From Gammaproteobacteria bacterium MedPE (GTDB lineage: Bacteria; Pseudomonadota; Gammaproteobacteria; Enterobacterales; Psychrobiaceae): 33,543 bases of DNA. Position 1 is the stretch's first letter. Each line of letters starts with the position of its first letter. The stretch is from NCBI GenBank assembly GCA_001874365.1, contig MPDF01000021.1, positions 1 to 33,543 on the forward strand, written 5' to 3'. Shown here one piece after another: positions 3,418 to 16,597 of this stretch. A program made the position numbers and the translations under genes. The notes under the pieces are model-generated. The model did no database searches. It was not told where the DNA came from and saw only the letters and a list, made by a program, of their open reading frames with translations.

Positions 3418-4947
3418 TTAGTCCACCTCTAACATGTCACGTTTCTTTTGCGACCATGTCACGTGAAATTTTTTGCCTTGTGGTTTATCAATGCGCTCAA
3501 AGGTATGAGCACCAAAGTAATCACGCTGCGCTTGTAACAAGTTTGCTGGCAGTGTATCCATGCGATAAGAGTCGTAATACGCCAATGCTGAGCTAAACGC
3601 GCCACATGGGATCCCATCGATCGTAGCTTTGGCAATTGCTTGTCGCCAGTTATGTTGATATTTCGCAATTTCGTTAGCAAAATATTCATCGAGCAATAGG
3701 TTACCTAGGTCACTATCACGGTCGTAAGCATCGGTGATTTTTTGTAAGAATGCCGCTCGAATGATACAGCCTGCACGCCAAATTTTTGCAATTCCACCAA
3801 AATCAATGGGCCAATTTTGCTCGCGCGCTGCCAATTTTATAAGTTGGAACCCTTGCGCGTAGGCAACGATTTTCGAACAATAAAGTGCATCGTGAATTTG
3901 TTCAATGCATAGTACTCGTTCTTGCTCTGTAACATCATTGATGGCGGGACCTTTTAACAGTTTAGCAGCGCGAATTCTCGCATGCTTTAGTGTTGAGAGA
4001 GAACGGGCAAATACCGATTGTGCAATAGTCGTTGCAGGTGCACCGACTTGCAACGCGCTCACTGCTGTCCATAAGCCAGTACCTTTTTGGCCTGCCTTAT
4101 CTAAGATAATATCTACTAATGGCTTTTTGGTTTCTGGATCGAACTCTAATAACACCTCTGCACTAATTTCCATGAGATAACTGTTTAGAATGCCGTTATT
4201 CCATTGTTTGAAAATGTTAGCAATATCAGTCGGCGTCATTTTTAACGACTCACGCATGATATGGTAGGCCTCACAAATCATTTGCATATCGGCGTATTCA
4301 ATGCCGTTATGAACCATCTTCACGTAATGACCGGAACCTGCTGGGCCGATGTATGTAGCACAAGGTTCACCCTGTGGTAACGGCTGGGTATGCGATGTGC
4401 GCTCTAAAGCACGGCCTGTTAATGGATCGACCTTAGCAGCGATTGCGTGCCAAACAGGTTCAATTCGGGCCCATGCATAAGGATCACCACTTGGCATCAA
4501 CGATGGCCCAAAACGCGCACCGACTTCGCCGCCTGAAACCGCTGTTGTGAAGAAATTAAATTTACCGCGGTAGCGTTTTTCACGCTCAACAGTATCAGTC
4601 CATAGGCTATTGCCTGTATCGACGATAATGTCGTCGGCGTTAATACCAGCATCAATAAGTTTCTCGCAAACATTATCCACTGGCGCACCCGCTGGAATTG
4701 ACAATATGATGAGGTGCGGCGCTTTTAACTTGCCTAATAGTTCGGTAAATGAATGACAAGGAACAATTCTTGGTACATCGGTCGTATTCTCTTGGGCGTC
4801 TGCTGCAAGTATTTCATCGACTTTGCAATGATCTAAATCGAATCCAGCAATTTTATAGCCATTATCGGCAAGATTTAACGCAAGGTTTTTACCCATTACG
4901 CCTAAACCAATAAATCCGATGTCACATGAAGTTTGTTGTTCTGTCAT
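3418..4947 (-). CDS. gnd: 6-phosphogluconate dehydrogenase, decarboxylating
   Basis: Gnd converts 6-phosphogluconate and NADP+ to ribulose 5-phosphate, CO2 and NADPH in the oxidative pentose-phosphate pathway. The Rossmann motif GLGVMG is at residues 14-19. The active-site signature includes SGGEVGARFGPSLMPSG (138-154) and the catalytic K210, H213, N214 and E217 in HYVKMVHNGIEYADMQ. The C-terminal all-helical domain is complete. At 509 residues it is somewhat longer than the approximately 470-residue enterobacterial enzyme, with extra residues around 176-196 and at the C-terminus. An AAGG stretch precedes the ATG. A HexR-like palindrome lies about 150 bases upstream. Confidence 0.96.
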   Translation of the reverse strand: MTEQQTSCDIGFIGLGVMGKNLALNLADNGYKIAGFDLDHCKVDEILAADAQENTTDVPRIVPCHSFTELLGKLKAPHLIILSIPAGAPVDNVCEKLIDAGINADDIIVDTGNSLWTDTVEREKRYRGKFNFFTTAVSGGEVGARFGPSLMPSGDPYAWARIEPVWHAIAAKVDPLTGRALERTSHTQPLPQGEPCATYIGPAGSGHYVKMVHNGIEYADMQMICEAYHIMRESLKMTPTDIANIFKQWNNGILNSYLMEISAEVLLEFDPETKKPLVDIILDKAGQKGTGLWTAVSALQVGAPATTIAQSVFARSLSTLKHARIRAAKLLKGPAINDVTEQERVLCIEQIHDALYCSKIVAYAQGFQLIKLAAREQNWPIDFGGIAKIWRAGCIIRAAFLQKITDAYDRDSDLGNLLLDEYFANEIAKYQHNWRQAIAKATIDGIPCGAFSSALAYYDSYRMDTLPANLLQAQRDYFGAHTFERIDKPQGKKFHVTWSQKKRDMLEVD

Positions 4948-5239
4948 TTTTGTACCTTAATGCAGAGAGGAGATTATTGGCGCGGAGTATAACTTAATTA
5001 TTTTGTAAAAATAATACCAAAGTTGGAAATTCCTAAACTAAATTTGCATGATGTAATGTGCTTTGGTTCATGTTTATTGAAGAATTCAGGCTCCTTTATG
5101 TAATTTTGTTACAGTAATGTGATATTACTACGTAAATAATTAGTCCCTGTAATGTTAACACTAGCCGCATATCAACGTTGATCATTAATTAATTTTCACG
5201 TTATATTGTTTACTTTCCGTTACTTAACATAAGAACAAT
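4948..5239. promoter_or_regulatory. Divergent intergenic region between gnd and yicG
   Basis: This 292-base, very A+T-rich stretch separates two divergent genes and must hold both promoters. On the minus strand a TATACT-type -10 for gnd lies near 4987-4993, with no good -35. A HexR-like palindrome (5099-5113) and an overlapping inverted repeat (5113-5129) lie in the middle. No RNA gene or ORF of note is visible. Confidence 0.5.
5099..5113. promoter_or_regulatory. HexR-like operator TGTAAT-TTT-GTTACA
   Basis: The 15-base palindrome TGTAATTTTGTTACA differs by one base from the gammaproteobacterial HexR consensus TGTAATwwwATTACA as I recall it. HexR is the phosphosugar-responsive regulator of central carbon genes, so a site upstream of gnd makes biological sense. 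It overlaps by one base a second inverted repeat, AGTAAT-N5-ATTACT (5113-5129). It lies about 150 bases from gnd and 127 bases from yicG, so its target is not certain. Confidence 0.5.
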
Positions 5240-5872
5240 ATGAATCAGTTATTAGACTTAGAATTTATGGTGACCCTTTTAGGCTTATTTGGTATCGCCG
5301 TCTTTGCGGTATCTGGCGCATTAGACGCCGCAAGAAAGGAAATGGACATCTTAGGTTTTATGTTAATAGGAACGGTTACTGGTCTTGGTGGCGGTACTAT
5401 TCGAGATGTTTTGTTAGGAAACGTTCCTGTGTATTGGATCATGGATGCGACCTACGTCGGTTTGTGTATGTTGATGTCCTTAATGACCTATTTTGTTGCA
5501 CCCTTGTTAGAATCTCGTACTAAAGCACTTATTTGGATGGATGCTCTGGGTTTGGCGCTATTTTGTGTCACTGGAACTCAAATAGCTGCGTCATTAGGTG
5601 CACCACCGCTGATCTGTGTTTGCATGGGCGTTGTTACCGCGTCATTCGGCGGAATTATTCGAGACGTACTTTGTGGTTATGATTTGGTCCTAAGTAATCG
5701 CGAGCTCTATGTGACAACCGCTGTAGCTGGTGGCTCAATTTATTGGGTATTACATTGGGTTGGCGTTGTAGAAAGTATTGCTATGTTAGGCGGGTTCTTG
5801 GCAGCGTTCGGCTTACGAAGCGCCGCCATTATCTGGGGCTTGTCATTGCCCTCTTATCAATCTAAACGCTAG
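5240..5872 (+). CDS. yicG: YicG/UPF0126 (TRIC-type) membrane protein
   Basis: This 210-residue integral membrane protein carries the tandem UPF0126 repeat. The first signature, GTVTGLGGGTIRDVLLG, is at residues 44-60; the second, ASFGGIIRDVLCG, is near 134-146. The fold is that of trimeric intracellular cation channels, and some bacterial members have been linked to glycine uptake, so either cation-channel or amino-acid transport activity is possible. Seven membrane segments are expected. The ribosome-binding site is weak (AAGAA). It converges with the DUF501 gene, with only two bases between stop codons and no visible terminator. Confidence 0.9.
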   Translation: MNQLLDLEFMVTLLGLFGIAVFAVSGALDAARKEMDILGFMLIGTVTGLGGGTIRDVLLGNVPVYWIMDATYVGLCMLMSLMTYFVAPLLESRTKALIWMDALGLALFCVTGTQIAASLGAPPLICVCMGVVTASFGGIIRDVLCGYDLVLSNRELYVTTAVAGGSIYWVLHWVGVVESIAMLGGFLAAFGLRSAAIIWGLSLPSYQSKR

Positions 5873-8522: not shown

Positions 8523-8536
8523 TTGATCTAAATCAA
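8523..8536. promoter_or_regulatory. FNR box upstream of ccoNOQP
   Basis: The sequence TTGATCTAAATCAA is a perfect TTGAT-N4-ATCAA FNR/ANR site. Its distance to the TATGAT hexamer at 8560 fits an activator centred near -41.5. FNR control of cbb3 oxidase genes is well established in proteobacteria. Confidence 0.88.
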
Positions 8537-8715: not shown

Positions 8716-10137
8716 ATGAGTCACACTAGTCCATCACACGCTGATTATAACTACACTGTTATCCGCCAATTCGCAATTGCCACGGTAATTCTGGGGATTG
8801 TGGGTATGGCTGTTGGTGTATTTATCGCAGCACAGCTCTACTGGCCAAGTTTAAATTTCGATACTCCTTGGTTGACCTTTAGCCGGTTACGACCGCTTCA
8901 CACTAATGCCGTTATTTTCGGTTTTGGTACGAGCGCCCTTTTCGCAACGTCCTACTACGTTGTTCAACGCACCTGTCAAGTCAGGTTATTCAGCGACAAG
9001 CTTGCCGCATTCACCTTCTACGGTTGGATGGCAATCATCGCATCAGCAGTTATCACTTTACCACTAGGTTTCACCTCGTCTAAAGAATACGCTGAACTTG
9101 AATGGCCAATCGATATCGCTATCGCTATTGTCTGGGTCGCTTATGCTATCAACTTCTTTGGCACCTTAATGAAACGTAAGACCTCACACATTTATGTGGC
9201 GAACTGGTTCTACGGTGGTTTCATCCTAGTTGTAGCTATCTTACATATCGTAAACAGTGCAGCAGTACCTGTATCATGGTTAAAATCTTACTCTGCCTAC
9301 GCCGGCGCAACTGATGCGATGGTTCAATGGTGGTACGGTCATAATGCGGTAGGTTTCCTATTAACTGCTGGCTTCCTAGGTATGATGTATTACTTCGTTC
9401 CTAAACAAGCTGAACGTCCAGTTTATTCTTACCGTCTATCTATCGTTCACTTTTGGGCGTTAGTAGCACTTTATATTTGGGCTGGTTCACATCACCTTCA
9501 CTACACAGCGCTTCCTGATTGGACGCAAACTGTCGGTATGGTTATGTCTGTTATCTTATTTGCACCTTCTTGGGGTGGTATGATCAACGGTATCATGACG
9601 TTATCTGGTGCATGGCATAAACTACGTACTGATCCTATTCTACGTTTCCTTATCGTTTCATTGTCTTTCTACGGTATGTCTACCTTCGAAGGTCCAATGA
9701 TGTCAATCAAGACTGTAAACGCGCTTTCTCATTACACAGATTGGACTGTTGGTCACGTTCACTCAGGTGCTTTAGGTTGGGTTGCTATGGTGTCAGTTGG
9801 TGCCTTGTACCATATGATCCCACGTTTATACGGTAACACTCGTATGTACAGCAAATCACTAATCAACACTCACTTCTGGTTAGCGACTATCGGTACAGTA
9901 CTATACATCGTAGCTATGTGGATATCTGGCGTTATGCAAGGTCTAATGTGGTCTGCTGTTAATGCTGACGGTACACTGACGTACAGCTTCGTTGAAAGTG
10001 TTGAGGCATCTATGCCATTCTACTTGATGCGTACTATTGGTGGTGCTTTCTTCTTGTTCGGTATGTTCATCATGCTATACAACGTTATTAAAACAATTAC
10101 TGCACCGAAAGGTTCACTAATTGAAGAAGAAGCGTAA
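8716..10137 (+). CDS. ccoN: cbb3-type cytochrome c oxidase subunit I
   Basis: CcoN is the catalytic subunit of the high-affinity cbb3 oxidase, reducing O2 at a heme b3-CuB site and pumping protons. Expected ligands are visible: H62 in [13 protein letters not shown] and H349 (low-spin heme b), H209 in WWYGHN and H259/H260 in AGSHH (CuB), H347 in VGHVHSG (heme b3), and the cross-linked Tyr253 in LYIWAGSHH. At 473 residues with about 12 membrane helices the length is normal. GGAAG at 8704-8708 sets the start. It is the first gene of ccoNOQP, behind a perfect FNR box. Codon use is strongly biased, consistent with high expression. Confidence 0.97.
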
Positions 10138-10147
10138 GGAGCGAACG

Positions 10148-10762
10148 ATGTTTAAAAAGTTAAATCATGAACGCGTTGAAAAGAACGCTGGCTTACTTGG
10201 CATCTTTACTATCTTAGCGATTAGCTTCGGTACATTAGTAGAGATTACACCAAACTTATTCCTAGAAGAGACTAACCGCCCTATCGACGGTATGAAGCCT
10301 TTAACGGCCCTACAGTTTGAAGGTCGCGATATTTATATTCGTGAAGGTTGTGTTCAATGTCACTCGCAAATGATTCGTCCGTTCCGTCATGAGACTGAAC
10401 GTTACGGCCACTATTCATTAGCTGGTGAATCTGTTTGGAATCACCCATTCTTATGGGGCTCTAAGCGTACTGGTCCAGATTTGGCTCGTGTTGGCGGTCG
10501 CTACAGCGACGCATGGCATGAAGCTCATTTAATCGACCCACGCGCGGTTGTTCCTGAGTCGAACATGCCAGGGTTCCCTTGGTTAGCGGAAAACACATTA
10601 GATGGTGAATTAACACCGAAGAAGCTTAGCATCTTCAAAAACACCTTTGATGTGCCTTACACCGATGCTGACATTGCAGGCGCTACAGATGCTGTTAAAG
10701 GCAAAACTGAGCTTGAAGCGTTAATCGCTTATCTGCAATCGCTTGGCACTAACTTAAAATAA
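10148..10762 (+). CDS. ccoO: cbb3-type cytochrome c oxidase subunit II (mono-heme c)
   Basis: CcoO is a membrane-anchored c-type cytochrome that passes electrons from CcoP to CcoN. The 204-residue protein has one N-terminal anchor (about residues 14-34), a heme-binding CVQCH at residues 68-72, and the axial Met140 in [10 protein letters not shown]. The frame can be extended to 10121 inside ccoN, but AAGGAG at 10135-10140 and family alignment (start [13 protein letters not shown]) place the true ATG at 10148, 10 bases after the ccoN stop. Confidence 0.97.
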
Positions 10763-10771
10763 GGAGTTCCC

Positions 10772-10954
10772 ATGGATTACGGTACATTTCGTGGCATCGT
10801 AACAGTGGGAATGCTGATTTTGTTTATCGGCATTTACGCTTGGGCTTACAGCTCACGACGCAAGAAAAGCTTTGATGAAGCAGCAAACCTAGTGTTTGCT
10901 GATGAGCAACCAAAACAGACAAATAAAGATCAGGAGAAGAGTACACATGAGTAA
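10772..10954 (+). CDS. ccoQ: cbb3-type oxidase small subunit CcoQ
   Basis: A 60-residue protein with one transmembrane helix (about residues 8-26), a basic SSRRKK stop-transfer stretch, and a polar tail containing the family pattern FDEAANLVFADE. CcoQ stabilises the assembled cbb3 complex. AAGGAG just upstream gives a strong ribosome-binding site. Its last eight bases overlap the start of ccoP. Confidence 0.93.
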   Translation: MDYGTFRGIVTVGMLILFIGIYAWAYSSRRKKSFDEAANLVFADEQPKQTNKDQEKSTHE

Positions 10955-11900
10955 CTTCTGGAGTGCTTGGATTATCGCCGGATCACTTATTGTTATCTTT
11001 GGCTGTGCATATTTATTACGCATGGTTATCGTTGACACTATGGGTGAAGAAGGCAAGGAAATGTCGCATAAATTTGACGGCATTGTTGAAATGAATAACC
11101 CGCTTCCACGTTGGTGGACAATAATGTTCGTCATGAGCATTATCTGGGGTTTAGGCTATTTCATTGTTTTCGGTATTGGTAGTTTCGAAGGGGTTATCGG
11201 TTGGAAAAGTGCTAACAAGCAAGTGTATTCACTCGCTGACTCAAAAGCACAAAACGCCCGTAGCCGCGAAAATAACGAAATTATTCAATATCTAAATGAG
11301 TTAGATACTGCAGATGCTGTTTACGGTAAAACGTATGCAAAATATGCAGCAATGACACCAGAGCAGTTAATGGAAGACGAGCAAGCGTTAAAAGTTGGTC
11401 AACGTCTATTCATTCAAAACTGTGCACAGTGTCATGGTAGTGATGCACGTGGTCAACGCGGCTTCCCTAACCTAACTGATACTGATTGGCTACATGGCGG
11501 CAGCTTTGCAAAAATCAAAGAAACTATCAATAAAGGCCGTGATAGCCGTACGATGGTATCTTGGAAAGCTGCACTTGGCGGTGACGAAGGTGTTAAAGAC
11601 GTAGTAACTTACGTTCGTAGCCTAAGTGGTCGTAAAGTAAATGCTAAGGACGCCGCTGCAGGTAAACTGAAGTTCGGTATCTGTGCTGGCTGTCATGGTA
11701 TTGATGGTAAAGGTAATCAAGCACTTGGTGCGCCTAACTTAACAGATAACATATGGTTATACGGCGGTTCTACTGCTGCTATCACTGATTCTGTTGCCAA
11801 TGGTCGTATCGGTGTAATGCCTGCTTGGGAAGAAATCCTTGGCGAAGACAAAGTTCACGTAATCTCTGCTTACGTATATAGCTTGTCTAACAAGAAATAG
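10947..11900 (+). CDS. ccoP: cbb3-type cytochrome c oxidase subunit III (di-heme c)
   Basis: CcoP is the di-heme electron entry subunit. The 317-residue protein has an N-terminal FixP_N-type region with two membrane helices (about residues 6-26 and 57-78), then two cytochrome c domains with CAQCH (159-163) and CAGCH (246-250). The likely axial methionines are M203 and M291. The longer in-frame start at 10896 lies inside ccoQ; AGGAG at 10932-10936 and the family start MSNFWSAWII support ATG 10947. The gene ends the structural operon, just before a strong terminator. Confidence 0.97.
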   Translation: MSNFWSAWIIAGSLIVIFGCAYLLRMVIVDTMGEEGKEMSHKFDGIVEMNNPLPRWWTIMFVMSIIWGLGYFIVFGIGSFEGVIGWKSANKQVYSLADSKAQNARSRENNEIIQYLNELDTADAVYGKTYAKYAAMTPEQLMEDEQALKVGQRLFIQNCAQCHGSDARGQRGFPNLTDTDWLHGGSFAKIKETINKGRDSRTMVSWKAALGGDEGVKDVVTYVRSLSGRKVNAKDAAAGKLKFGICAGCHGIDGKGNQALGAPNLTDNIWLYGGSTAAITDSVANGRIGVMPAWEEILGEDKVHVISAYVYSLSNKK

Positions 11901-11919
11901 ATTAAACTAAAATCTAGTA

Positions 11920-11950
11920 GGGCTTCGTGATATGCGAAGCCCTTTTTTTT
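11920..11950 (+). terminator. Intrinsic terminator after ccoP
   Basis: An eight-base perfect stem (GGGCTTCG/CGAAGCCC) closes a seven-base loop, followed by eight T residues. It should separate abundant ccoNOQP mRNA from the downstream assembly genes, unless there is read-through. Confidence 0.9.
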
Positions 11951-12011: not shown

Positions 12012-12509
12012 GTGAGTACGATTGAACCTTGGTACAAACAAGGCTGGCCTTGGGCACTTATTATATTACCTTTGGTCGTTGTTGTTGCCTGTGTCACTAC
12101 ACTAATGATCGCTATTAATAACAAGCCTGATCTTGTAGCAGAAGATTACTATAAAAAAGGTAAAGCGATTAACGTCGACTTGTCGCGTTTAGATAATGCG
12201 TATCGTCTCGCTTTAAAATTCCGTCTTAAGGTGACTGGTGAAAAACTTTCATTGACTCAAACGATGGGAGAGCCACAAAAAGCTGCATTAAAATTGCGTT
12301 TTATTCACCGTACTCAAAAAGCTAAAGATTTTGAAATATTGTTGACTGCCAATGCCGCTGGTACTTTTGAACAAACATTAAATATGCCGCTTGAGGGTAA
12401 ATGGACGATTCAACTCGAATCCTTCGATGCCAAATGGCGTATTCAAACCGTCGATAAATTCCCGTCTGATCACGACACCATGTTAGATTCTTTTGCTAAT
12501 CGTCTCTAA
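12012..12509 (+). CDS. ccoH: FixH/CcoH family cbb3 assembly protein
   Basis: The 165-residue protein has one N-terminal membrane anchor (about residues 14-35) preceded by WYKQGWPWALI, the typical FixH opening. It then has NKPDLVAEDYYKKGKAIN (about 37-54), a hallmark of the family, and a periplasmic beta-rich domain. CcoH is needed for assembly or stability of cbb3 oxidase. It starts at GTG, with GGAG at 12002-12005. Its TAA overlaps the ccoI ATG (TAATG). ccoG, which often precedes ccoH in other bacteria, is absent here. Confidence 0.9.
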   Translation: MSTIEPWYKQGWPWALIILPLVVVVACVTTLMIAINNKPDLVAEDYYKKGKAINVDLSRLDNAYRLALKFRLKVTGEKLSLTQTMGEPQKAALKLRFIHRTQKAKDFEILLTANAAGTFEQTLNMPLEGKWTIQLESFDAKWRIQTVDKFPSDHDTMLDSFANRL

Positions 12510-14941
12510 TGTCCAACACTCTTAACGATTGTTATCACTGCGGGGAGAATATTCCCGCAGACTTCGCTCAATCTGTCATTATTGATAATCAAGAGCAGCC
12601 TATGTGCTGTATCGGCTGTGCTAGTGTCGCACAAACGATTGTTGATAATGGGCTTACTGGCTATTACCGCCATAGAACTGATAAAGGCGCCAAAGGCTCT
12701 GAATTAGTACCAGAAGAGCTGAGAACCCTTCAATCTTATGATTTAACGGAAATAGAACAAGAATTCACTGTTGAGAATGGTGAACTGAAGGAAGTTATTC
12801 TTACCGTTGAAAATGTCACCTGTGCAGCTTGTGCTTGGTTGATCGAACGAAAACTTGGCGCGATGAAAGGGATTGCTCAATCAAACGTCAATACATCGAG
12901 TGCAAGATTAAGTATCAAATGGCAACATGATCAATTAAAACTATCGGATATTTTATTGGCATTGGCGGAGATTGGCTACAAGGCCTACCCTTTTAAGGCT
13001 GACGTTGCCGAAGAAAACGAAGTTGCCAGTGCAAAAGCCTATTTACGCCGCGTCACCATCGCTGGTTTGGCAACCATGCAAATCATGATGTTTGCAATGG
13101 CAACCTATGTTGATATGCCTGGTGATGGCGGGACATTGACGGATGGCTTTAGTGACTACTTTCGATACGTCAGTCTATTATTCGCCCTACCCGTGGTATT
13201 TTATTCAAGTTTGCCTTTCTACAAGAATGCATTTAGTGCCCTTTTGGCAAAGCGACTCAATATGGATGTTCCCGTCTCTGTTGCGATTTTGCTTTCTTTC
13301 TTTGCGAGCGCTTATGCAACATTAACAGATCAAGGTGAGGTTTATTTTGAATCCATCTGTATGTTCGCATTTTTCTTGTTGCTAGGACGTCATCTCGAGC
13401 AATCGGCAAAACGAAAAGCTGCCCAATCGAGTTCTAATTTATTAAAGTTGATTCCGTCAACAGCAACGCTAATAGAAGATGGGGAATTCACAAGCATTCC
13501 AGCAAAGACCCTAAAACTTGGACAACGGGTACTTGTCAAACCAGGCGAAGTCATTCCGTGTGACGGTATTATTGTGCAAGGTGCAACACATTGTAATGAG
13601 TCGGTATTGACTGGCGAGCAATTACCTGTTGCCAAAGCAGTCAATGATTGGGTGTTTGCAAGTACCATTAATAATGACCAATCAATTGAGGTGATTGTTA
13701 AGGAAGAACGCGGTCAACAACTTATTACGAAGATTATTGACCTGCAAGAGAAAGCCGCTAACGATAAACCGAAGTTAGCAACCATTGCTGATCGCTTATC
13801 GCAATACGTGGTCATTGGCATCTTGTTGCTTGCCGCAGCGACCTACCTTGGTTGGTATTTTGTCGAACCATCTCATGCATTGTGGTATTCACTAGCCGTT
13901 TTGGTCGCTACATGTCCCTGTGCCTTGAGTCTTGCCACACCGTCGGCTTATACCGCAGCAACAACAAAGATGCAGCAGTTTGGTTTGCTTGCAAAACAAG
14001 GTAAGACTCTAGACACGTTAACGCAGATTGATCACATTTGTTTTGATAAAACCGGTACATTAACGACTGGTCTGTTTTCCGTTGATAAGGTGATATTAGC
14101 TGATAACGCACCAGATGAATCAGAGATACTGACACTCGTTTCTGCGTTAGAGTCACACTCCAGTCATCCCATTGCCAAAGCATTTGATCGATTTGGCGGT
14201 GCAAACGCCAAATTAACTGATGTAAACACCCAACAAGGCGGTGGTTTAAATGCGCTGGCCAATAATAAGCGTATTTATGTTGGCAGCCAAACTTATATTT
14301 CACAGTATGCATCCATCAGTGGTGAATTAACCGCACACCAAAGTGACAACCATTGTGTGGTCATTTTTGTCGCCGTCAATGCTCAATGCGTAGCGAAAAT
14401 TGAGCTAAGCGACAAGATACGGCCTGAAAGCGCGCAGTTAATCAAAGATTTACATGCACAAGCGATCGAAACCACGATGCTTACGGGTGATAACTCTGAC
14501 AATGCTAATTTTGTGGCCAAACATTTAGGACTAACACATGTCAAACAAGGTCAAAGTCCACAAAACAAACTCGACTATCTTAAGACGGTTCAAGACGATA
14601 ACAAGGTCGTCGCAATGTTTGGTGACGGTGTAAATGATGCGCCAGTGCTGAGTCAAGCTCATTTATCGTTTGCAATGGGAACTGGCGCCGACATCGCTAA
14701 GTCGTCTGCCGATATTGTCATTTTGCATGATGATTTAGCGGCAGTTGTCAAAGCGATTAATCTTGCAAAACAAACAAAACGTATCATCAAACAGAACTTT
14801 TTTTGGGCATTGGGGTATAATCTCACGGCAGTACCATTTGCTGTCGCTGGCTACCTTCCCCCTTATGTCGCTGCTATTGGTATGTCCCTGAGTTCCATTA
14901 TTGTCGTAGTCAACTCACTACGCTTATTGAAGGTTAAGTAA
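12509..14941 (+). CDS. ccoI: Copper-translocating P1B-type ATPase for cbb3 oxidase
   Basis: CcoI/FixI exports copper towards the periplasm for CuB insertion into CcoN. The 810-residue protein opens with a Cys-rich metal-binding region (CYHCGENIP and CCIGCASV, residues 8-40), followed by a heavy-metal-associated domain with CAAC at 105-108. P-type ATPase landmarks are TGE (368-370), the intramembrane CPC (469-471), phosphorylated D513 in DKTGTLT, HP at 553-554, and GDGVND (705-710). It overlaps both neighbours by one base through TAATG. The full-length motif set argues that it is active. Confidence 0.96.
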   Translation: MSNTLNDCYHCGENIPADFAQSVIIDNQEQPMCCIGCASVAQTIVDNGLTGYYRHRTDKGAKGSELVPEELRTLQSYDLTEIEQEFTVENGELKEVILTVENVTCAACAWLIERKLGAMKGIAQSNVNTSSARLSIKWQHDQLKLSDILLALAEIGYKAYPFKADVAEENEVASAKAYLRRVTIAGLATMQIMMFAMATYVDMPGDGGTLTDGFSDYFRYVSLLFALPVVFYSSLPFYKNAFSALLAKRLNMDVPVSVAILLSFFASAYATLTDQGEVYFESICMFAFFLLLGRHLEQSAKRKAAQSSSNLLKLIPSTATLIEDGEFTSIPAKTLKLGQRVLVKPGEVIPCDGIIVQGATHCNESVLTGEQLPVAKAVNDWVFASTINNDQSIEVIVKEERGQQLITKIIDLQEKAANDKPKLATIADRLSQYVVIGILLLAAATYLGWYFVEPSHALWYSLAVLVATCPCALSLATPSAYTAATTKMQQFGLLAKQGKTLDTLTQIDHICFDKTGTLTTGLFSVDKVILADNAPDESEILTLVSALESHSSHPIAKAFDRFGGANAKLTDVNTQQGGGLNALANNKRIYVGSQTYISQYASISGELTAHQSDNHCVVIFVAVNAQCVAKIELSDKIRPESAQLIKDLHAQAIETTMLTGDNSDNANFVAKHLGLTHVKQGQSPQNKLDYLKTVQDDNKVVAMFGDGVNDAPVLSQAHLSFAMGTGADIAKSSADIVILHDDLAAVVKAINLAKQTKRIIKQNFFWALGYNLTAVPFAVAGYLPPYVAAIGMSLSSIIVVVNSLRLLKVK

Positions 14942-15114
14942 TGAATATAATTCTACTGTTAATACCTGTAGCTATTGGCGTCATCATTGTCGCTGGTTTT
15001 ATTTTCGTCTGGGCGGTAAAAACCGATCAGTTTGAAGATTTAGATCGTCAGGGATCTAATATTTTGTTTGATGACGACGAGGTAAAATCAACCCAAGATA
15101 AACCACCACAATAA
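14941..15114 (+). CDS. ccoS: cbb3 oxidase maturation protein CcoS
   Basis: This is a 57-residue single-pass membrane protein. The helix is about residues 3-25 and ends in the family hallmark FVWAVKTDQFEDLDRQG, followed by ILFDDDE in the cytoplasmic tail. CcoS is required for cofactor insertion into CcoN. The ATG shares its A with the ccoI stop (TAATG), and its own TAA overlaps the next ATG in the same way. Confidence 0.95.
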   Translation: MNIILLLIPVAIGVIIVAGFIFVWAVKTDQFEDLDRQGSNILFDDDEVKSTQDKPPQ

Positions 15115-15800
15115 TGGAAAATTACGATTTTTGGGCAGCGCTCATGGTTGGCCTATTGAGTGCCGGCCATTGCTTTGGTATGTGTGGCGGCGTTGTAGGT
15201 GCTTTTTCTGCTAATATTCCTCTGCACCATCGCATGAGTAAAGCCCACCGACTCCAATACATCATCAGCTACAACATTGGTCGCATCGCGAGTTACGCAC
15301 TTGCAGGTGCGCTAATTGGTTATTCCGTCAGTTTTTTCGCCGTTAAATCTTCTTCTATAATTTACGCACTTCAGTTAGTTGCTGGATTAATGCTAGTTCT
15401 AATTGGACTTTACTTGTTAGGTCTTGGCAACTTCGTTAGAAAAACTGAAATAATTGGTAAGCACTTGTGGCCACGTATTTCAAAACTCGCTAATAACTTC
15501 ATCCCATTTAAATCTCCCGTGAGTGCGTTTCCATTTGGCATGGTATGGGGATGGCTGCCATGTGGCCTAGTTTACAGCACTTTAACGTGGTCAGCAGCGT
15601 CGGGCTCGCCCACCTCTGGTGCATTAATCATGTTAGGCTTTGGTCTAGGTACTTTACCCGCCATGGTCAGTATGGGTTTCTTCTCTGAACAACTTAAAAA
15701 AGTCCTAACCAACCGAGTTATAAGAGTTTTCTGTGCACTACTAATTATTGGCTACGGCGCACTGATGATCGGTAAAACCCTGATAAGGTTTATAATTTGA
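15114..15800 (+). CDS. TauE/SafE-UreH-like membrane protein with paired Cys motifs
   Basis: The 228-residue protein has about six membrane segments. It carries GHCFGMCGG at residues 18-26 in the first helix and WLPCG with C150 at the matching place in the second half, the pattern of the UreH/DsbD_2-type transmembrane family (PF13386), often labelled 'sulfite exporter TauE/SafE'. Its constant place after ccoS, with a TAATG overlap, suggests a role in cbb3 maturation, for example copper or reductant handling, rather than sulfite export. That is inference from context and cysteines only. Confidence 0.85.
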   Translation: MENYDFWAALMVGLLSAGHCFGMCGGVVGAFSANIPLHHRMSKAHRLQYIISYNIGRIASYALAGALIGYSVSFFAVKSSSIIYALQLVAGLMLVLIGLYLLGLGNFVRKTEIIGKHLWPRISKLANNFIPFKSPVSAFPFGMVWGWLPCGLVYSTLTWSAASGSPTSGALIMLGFGLGTLPAMVSMGFFSEQLKKVLTNRVIRVFCALLIIGYGALMIGKTLIRFII

Positions 15801-15871: not shown

Positions 15872-16597
15872 ATGAGCAGTAGTTCTTGTTCGGGCGTTGG
15901 AAGCATTCATTGTCAAAGCTGCAGTATGTCTGACTTATGTATTCCTTTTTCCCTCAATGAAACGGAAATGGACCAGCTCGACAACATCATTGAGCGCAAA
16001 AAACCAATTCAAAAGGGACAAATAATTTGTAGCGCGGGTGATAAGTTAAATTCTATTTTTGCCATTCGCTCTGGTAGTTTTAAAAGCTACACGTTAAGCA
16101 GTGATGGAAATGAGCAAGTTGTTTCATTTAACCTGGCTGGCGATATCGTTGGTTTTGATAGTATCGGACGTGGGGTTCACCAAAGCTTTGCTATTGCGTT
16201 AGAAACAGCCATGGTGTGTGAAATACCTTATGATACTGTTGAACAATTATCAGGACGGATGCCACGTTTGCGTCAACAAATGATGCGGTTAATGAGCGAC
16301 GAGATCCTAAATGATCAGGGAATGCTCATGTTGCTTAGTCAACGAAACGCCGAAGAACGTCTAGCAACGTTTATTAGTTCACTCGGCGAACGATTCGGCG
16401 AACGCGGATTTTCAAGTAAAGAATTCCGTTTAACCATGACTCGCGGCGATATCGGTAATTACTTAGGCTTAACAGTCGAAACCATTTCACGCTTACTCGG
16501 TCGTTTTAAGCGCGATAAATTAATTGAAGTGACAGGTAAGTATGTCACCATACTTGATAAAGAAGCATTAGACGCTGTCAGCGGCGTAGCCAAGTAA
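15872..16597 (+). CDS. fnr: FNR oxygen-sensing transcriptional regulator
   Basis: FNR binds a [4Fe-4S] cluster without oxygen, dimerises and activates or represses anaerobic genes. Cluster cysteines C14, C17, C23 and C116 match E. coli C20, C23, C29 and C122. The cyclic-nucleotide-like fold and dimer helix follow, and the recognition helix [11 protein letters not shown] carries the E-xx-SR residues that read TTGAT. The 241-residue length fits once the shorter N-terminus is counted. It ends at a terminator and sits after the cbb3 assembly genes, as in Shewanella (etrA). Two perfect FNR boxes in this window are its likely targets. Confidence 0.97.

Follow-up and report, generated by a model that had tools for sequence, protein, structure and literature searches.

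The membrane protein of the DsbD_2 family encoded directly downstream of ccoS in Gammaproteobacteria bacterium MedPE very probably acts in the maturation of the cbb3 oxidase, as judged from gene order, co-occurrence and published counterparts. Its orthologue in another genus is a known factor, and the role itself is already known because orthologues at the same place have been published; they bear out the suggestion of a cbb3 factor made in the sequence-only reading. The reading of the whole subfamily in terms of copper may constitute the new part. With a probability of about 0.5, resting on gene context and the HCxxMC motif, copper handling would be the way in which the protein works in cbb3 maturation.

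The gene lies in a stretch of 33,543 nucleotides (contig MPDF01000021.1), hereafter the window, in the order ccoN, ccoO, ccoQ, ccoP, ccoH, ccoI, ccoS, DsbD_2 gene and fnr/etrA; the genes beyond fnr/etrA are taken by us to be uspE and then ttcA. The features are as follows (window coordinates and strand).

8523..8536, +, perfect FNR-box-like site TTGATCTAAATCAA, 180 bases upstream of ccoN
8716..10137, +, ccoN, cbb3 subunit I (profile matches)
10121..10762, +, ccoO (profile matches)
10772..10954, +, ccoQ (FixQ; profile match)
10896..11900, +, ccoP (open reading frame as listed; true start probably further in)
11919..11943, +, terminator-like hairpin followed by a T run, between ccoP and ccoH
12012..12509, +, ccoH (FixH; profile match)
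12509..14941, +, ccoI, P1B-type copper ATPase (profile matches)
14941..15114, +, ccoS (FixS), its stop overlapping the start of the DsbD_2 gene (TAATG)
15114..15800, +, gene of the DsbD_2 (PF13386) membrane protein, 228 residues (open reading frame and Pfam); motifs read from the translation: HCxxMC at residues 19-24, PC at residues 149-150
15872..16597, +, fnr/etrA regulator, directly downstream of the DsbD_2 gene

The ccoS stop (TAA) and the initial ATG of the DsbD_2 gene overlap in TAATG, in agreement with the coupling proposed earlier, and ccoI and ccoS overlap in the same way (TAATG); the three genes are therefore probably co-translated. CcoI (12509-14941) carries an N-terminal putative metal-binding domain (PF12156) plus an HMA domain. 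The site at 8523-8536 was found with the FNR-box consensus. Sites with up to two mismatches number 44 in the window against 31 expected, and two are perfect (8523-8536 and 362-375). The hairpin at 11919-11943 may divide the cco genes between two transcription units; a scan of the window for such terminator-like hairpins gives four sites, i.e. fewer than the 8.6 found in shuffles.

The protein passes the curated cut-off of PF13386 over the whole model (186.5 bits against 24.9, model positions 1-198 of 199), the only Pfam family that it matches at E 0.001. It contains GHCFGMCGG, with C20, C24 and C150 at the positions given in the sequence-only reading. NCBIfam provides no meaningful name, its single match being far below cut-off, PHROGs yields one weak match of unknown function, and sequence searches of the PDB return nothing useful. 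Two predicted models have pLDDT values of 81.4 and 88.6, and neither matches a PDB entry at E 0.001 in Foldseek. Among the VIA matches listed for the predicted models, the top one is LAT4 (Z 7.1); RnfA/NqrE-type subunits reach Z values of up to 6.9 (8ahx_A, rmsd 5.7 over 159 residues), unrelated transporters equal the Rnf/Nqr subunits in Z, and no CcdA structure is present.

The link to the cbb3 genes extends across the order. The DsbD_2 gene is found in 124 of the 197 sampled genomes, and ccoS scores above its cut-off in 123 (a list without G148, at 22.3 bits below cut-off, and without a second weak match in G167). All 123 carry the DsbD_2 gene; the single genome with the latter and no ccoS, G173, has a weak match (E 7e-5). 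In 119 of the 123, the DsbD_2 gene comes next after ccoS, on the same strand; the gap between the matched stretches is 21-316 bases in 118 of them and 927 bases in the other, G172. The four exceptions comprise G096, where both matches lie at contig ends, and G147, G039 and G023, where the genes are apart. Among the best 80 of 586 relatives recovered by a motif scan of genome contigs, ccoS is detected in 53 and stands directly upstream in 50.

Loci of Shewanella and Vibrio show the same order as the window, i.e. ccoS, DsbD_2 gene and fnr/etrA. A 2005 paper on Vibrio cholerae reportedly speaks in its abstract of a "novel CcdA-like protein", and the P. aeruginosa orthologue of the DsbD_2 gene is presumably PA1547. 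PA1547 and PA1548 are listed among the genes strongly depleted in wounds (PMC6448920, accessible part). As cited in the available text of PMC3899249, VC1435 of V. cholerae, located at the same place, is required for cbb3 assembly; the same text describes an additional gene annotated as dsbD, SO2357, which lies downstream of ccoS and is 77% similar to VC1435. SO_2357 received the new annotation "Cytochrome c oxidase maturation protein" from fitness data on multiple mutants (PMC3219624, in part), and it lies directly upstream of etrA (PMC3078092, in part). Like these DsbD-like proteins, the window protein is encoded directly downstream of ccoS and, like SO_2357, upstream of fnr/etrA; it belongs to another genus, however, and orthology rests on position and on the gene order of Shewanella and Vibrio. 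The accessible parts of the orthologue papers do not distinguish between copper supply and other steps of assembly, and no mechanism study of a VC1435/SO_2357-type protein was found in the literature as far as it was available. VC1435 is not mentioned in the accessible part of PMC9109917, and the words DsbD and TauE are absent from the main texts of the copper/cbb3 papers PMC8267372, PMC7558416 and PMC6769254.

In a wider search, 172 of 397 genomes contain a match to the DsbD_2 gene. The neighbourhoods of 60 such loci outside the order (52 genomes), hand-picked for variety from printed rows and not random, were compared with those of 40 free-standing CcdA loci (37 genomes), likewise hand-picked and leaning on family f64. 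An ATPase was called P1B-like when its best BLASTP match was to the ccoI or CopA references, and the counts of cco neighbours, at the 60 loci and the 40 controls alike, cover cco genes other than ccoP. A P1B-like ATPase lies within about 3.5 kb of 29 of the 60 DsbD_2 loci versus 3 of the 40 controls, and another cco gene within the same distance of 30 versus none. The Fisher values (p = 1e-5 for the ATPase and 4e-9 for the cco gene, relatedness ignored) are a guide only, since the loci are hand-picked, the control leans on f64 and genomes that are related do not count as independent. One or the other neighbour is present at 34 of the 60 loci. The remaining 26 have neither, and 22 of the 60 lack SCO1 as well; these loci speak against the copper reading. 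SCO1 occurs near 4 of the 60, one at only 38 bits; relatives seen next to SCO1 are L094 (by Pfam), L099 and L102 (both by eye). In the relatives L100 (Rugosibacter) and L105 (Azonexus), the DsbD_2 gene follows a presumed hemN, and 11 of the 60 loci also have a match to hemN. A gene resembling sigma-54-type activators is seen by eye directly after the DsbD_2 gene at L138, L141, L143, L150, L157, L161 and L168; this pair (around 4150-5300) occurs in seven loci with no cco gene, P1B-like ATPase or SCO1 nearby.

Five plasmid relatives, chosen by us from the 83 plasmid records with a match, illustrate the contexts. On plasmid pAt of Agrobacterium vitis (L117:2984-5684), the gene immediately before the DsbD_2 gene encodes a copper amine oxidase. 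In a Sinorhizobium meliloti plasmid it precedes a P-type ATPase (Pfam match, no HMA domain found) and has cbb3 genes upstream, in a Natrinema plasmid it also precedes a P-type ATPase (by annotation only), and in a Bernardetia plasmid it lies in a cco cluster before a Crp/Fnr gene. The relative from Acetoanaerobium contains an HMA domain (46.6 bits) as a fusion, and the gene after it encodes an ATPase that also bears HMA; the relative's cupredoxin match (23.9 bits) is below the cut-off of 27. HCxxMC is retained in four and PC in all of the five plasmid relatives; the A. vitis protein has Gln in place of M23, which argues against the copper reading. Proteins of COG2836 combining HMA and DsbD_2 are reported as inferred members of the CsoR copper regulon in gut Firmicutes (PMC4938975, accessible part). 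Such proteins resemble the window protein in having a DsbD_2 domain with HCxxMC and PC (Acetoanaerobium) near an HMA-bearing ATPase. They differ by their N-terminal HMA domain (and, in Acetoanaerobium, the sub-threshold cupredoxin match), both of which the window protein lacks, and they presumably serve detoxification and not cbb3.

All 141 aligned sequences, that of the window included, share H19, C20, M23, C24, P149 and C150 (L044 was excluded from alignment A2 due to a stop codon). The HCxxMC/PC motif is therefore not a matter of chance; the identity is nevertheless partly by construction, because 80 of the 141 sequences were picked up by scanning for either of two motifs in which these cysteines are included. 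A profile of the 141 homologues aligns with that of 40 CcdA proteins over 210 columns (hhalign probability 97.4, E 1.2e-11), pairing C20 and C150 with the two conserved cysteines of CcdA. On this comparison, the DsbD_2 family is clearly a remote CcdA relative, and the fold family is thus that of a thiol carrier. The kinship is clear only at the level of the 141-versus-40 profiles, not by pairwise BLAST or by a shallow profile against the genome's own CcdA, and at E 0.001 PF02683 does not match the window protein. The sequence-only reading placed C150 in the matching position of the second half, for which support is weak: a comparison of the two half profiles pairs C24 with C150 (E 0.001, probability 21%), whereas the CcdA comparison pairs C20 and C150. 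The first CcdA cysteine would thus correspond to C20 according to the CcdA profile, or to C24, which is favoured by the half-against-half comparison.

The site around the first cysteine differs between the families: PCxxP is found in 40 of 40 CcdA proteins (their frames were chosen for a PC somewhere, so that only the rest of PCxxP is free evidence) versus HCxxMC in 141 of 141 DsbD_2 sequences. In our own side-by-side reading (hhalign itself places a gap between G22 and M23), His and Met appear to replace the CcdA prolines, and one cysteine would be extra. His, Met and Cys together are usual Cu(I) ligands. The window family and CcdA or the DsbD transmembrane domain (PF02683) thus share homology over nearly the whole length and a cysteine in each half; they differ in that the window family has HCxxMC instead of PCxxP, has lost the proline after the second cysteine and has an extra cysteine, and in that its P1B-like ATPase and cco neighbours are commoner and TlpA-like ones rarer.

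The earlier proposal was that the protein supplies reductant or handles Cu(I); gene context and HCxxMC favour the copper half of it, with the thiol route as a rival. As the orthologue of VC1435/SO_2357, the protein would be an inner-membrane cbb3 maturation factor, probably made together with CcoI and CcoS. Most likely, it has a CcdA fold whose redox cysteine site became a Cu(I) site made up of H19, C20, M23, C24 and C150. Acting next to the ATPase CcoI, it would keep Cu(I) reduced in the membrane and hand the ion over either to SCO/PCuAC or straight to the CuB site of CcoN. Cu(I) binding, the direction of transfer and the partners are what we infer; matches to the SCO1 and PCuAC families are present in the genome itself. 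The CcdA-like fold with a conserved cysteine in each half also fits thiol transfer.

A thiol relay of CcdA type is the strongest rival, less likely than copper handling yet a serious one. C150 would act with C20 or C24 in moving electrons from cytoplasmic thioredoxin to the periplasm, where the cysteines of SCO, PCuAC or CcoO/CcoP would be kept reduced for copper or heme insertion. The match to the CcdA profile argues for it, and so do the Acetoanaerobium relative, which also scores above the PF02683 cut-off, the SCO1 neighbours of some relatives, and the TlpA-type thioredoxins that adjoin a few relatives away from cco genes (L111 and L113, by eye). Such neighbours are, however, rarer than for CcdA (3 of 60 loci versus 10 of 40 controls). 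Moreover, the CcdA prolines at the first cysteine are missing, and a relay does not need the invariant H19 and M23 or a third cysteine. The genome also encodes a separate CcdA-type protein; a PF02683 search of the genome gives a match at C130 only. The CcdA-type protein at L002:1408-2504, in the same genome, stands beside a thioredoxin-like periplasmic protein and offers a natural comparison for the thiol reading.

A purely structural role, in which the protein would assist the assembly or stability of CcoNOQP with no metal or redox chemistry, seems improbable. It would suit the tight linkage to cbb3 genes in the order. It fits poorly with the invariance of the His, Cys, Met and Cys of the first motif and of PC, and with relatives found in copper contexts with no cbb3 genes in the stretch shown.

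There is hardly any chance that the protein stands in for an absent CcoG as the source of Cu(I). The idea was prompted by the cco cluster of the window, and it is correct that ccoG is missing between ccoP and ccoH; the gene is present elsewhere, as a genome-wide search finds a full ccoG (G000:C108:6709-7995, 525.3 bits, cut-off 316.7), so nothing needs replacing by the DsbD_2 gene. Above its cut-off, ccoG is found in 125 of the 197 sampled genomes of the order, including 122 of the 123 with both the DsbD_2 gene and ccoS (G113 has none), and the argument from its absence fails. Of these 122 genomes, 15 have their best ccoG copy no more than 15 kb from the DsbD_2 gene and 107 do not (best copy only, contig breaks ignored and the weak match in G173 excluded). 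In G039, ccoG is beside ccoN and the DsbD_2 gene is apart. Three genomes (G013, G035 and G127) have ccoG and no match to the DsbD_2 gene; G013, an assembly rated 85% complete, contains ccoN and ccoG and neither ccoS nor the DsbD_2 gene. The ccoG gene of S. oneidensis (SO4737) stands alone, apart from the cco cluster (PMC3899249, accessible part). The co-occurrence of the two genes contradicts replacement, which is rejected. The cupric reductase CcoG is, like the window protein, a cbb3 factor, and it is concerned with copper (PMC7558416, accessible part); it is a different, iron-sulfur protein, and the same genome encodes both.

Export of sulfite or sulfonate is equally far-fetched and is rejected on profile and gene context: the only point in its favour is the product name of homologues, "sulfite exporter TauE/SafE family protein", from which the unfitting name derives, and against it stand the position, the co-occurrence with ccoS, the published orthologue data and the match at E 0.001 to DsbD_2 only, not to the TauE profile, which we take to represent the TauE/SafE sulfite exporters.

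How cbb3 oxidases obtain the copper of their buried CuB site is, to our knowledge, incompletely understood. The HCxxMC motif, the ATPase neighbours and the HMA fusion tie the DsbD_2 protein to copper and make the copper reading a directly testable idea. More tentatively, the family as a whole could have turned the intramembrane redox cysteine site of a CcdA fold into a Cu(I) site (HCxxMC plus PC) and be a general Cu(I) partner of P1B ATPases in bacteria and haloarchaea, in settings ranging from cbb3 and amine oxidase to the HMA fusions of Firmicutes. If this is true, its members would deliver Cu(I) to the cbb3 oxidase, to copper amine oxidase and to other copper enzymes, and the HMA-fused ones in Firmicutes would belong to copper-resistance operons.
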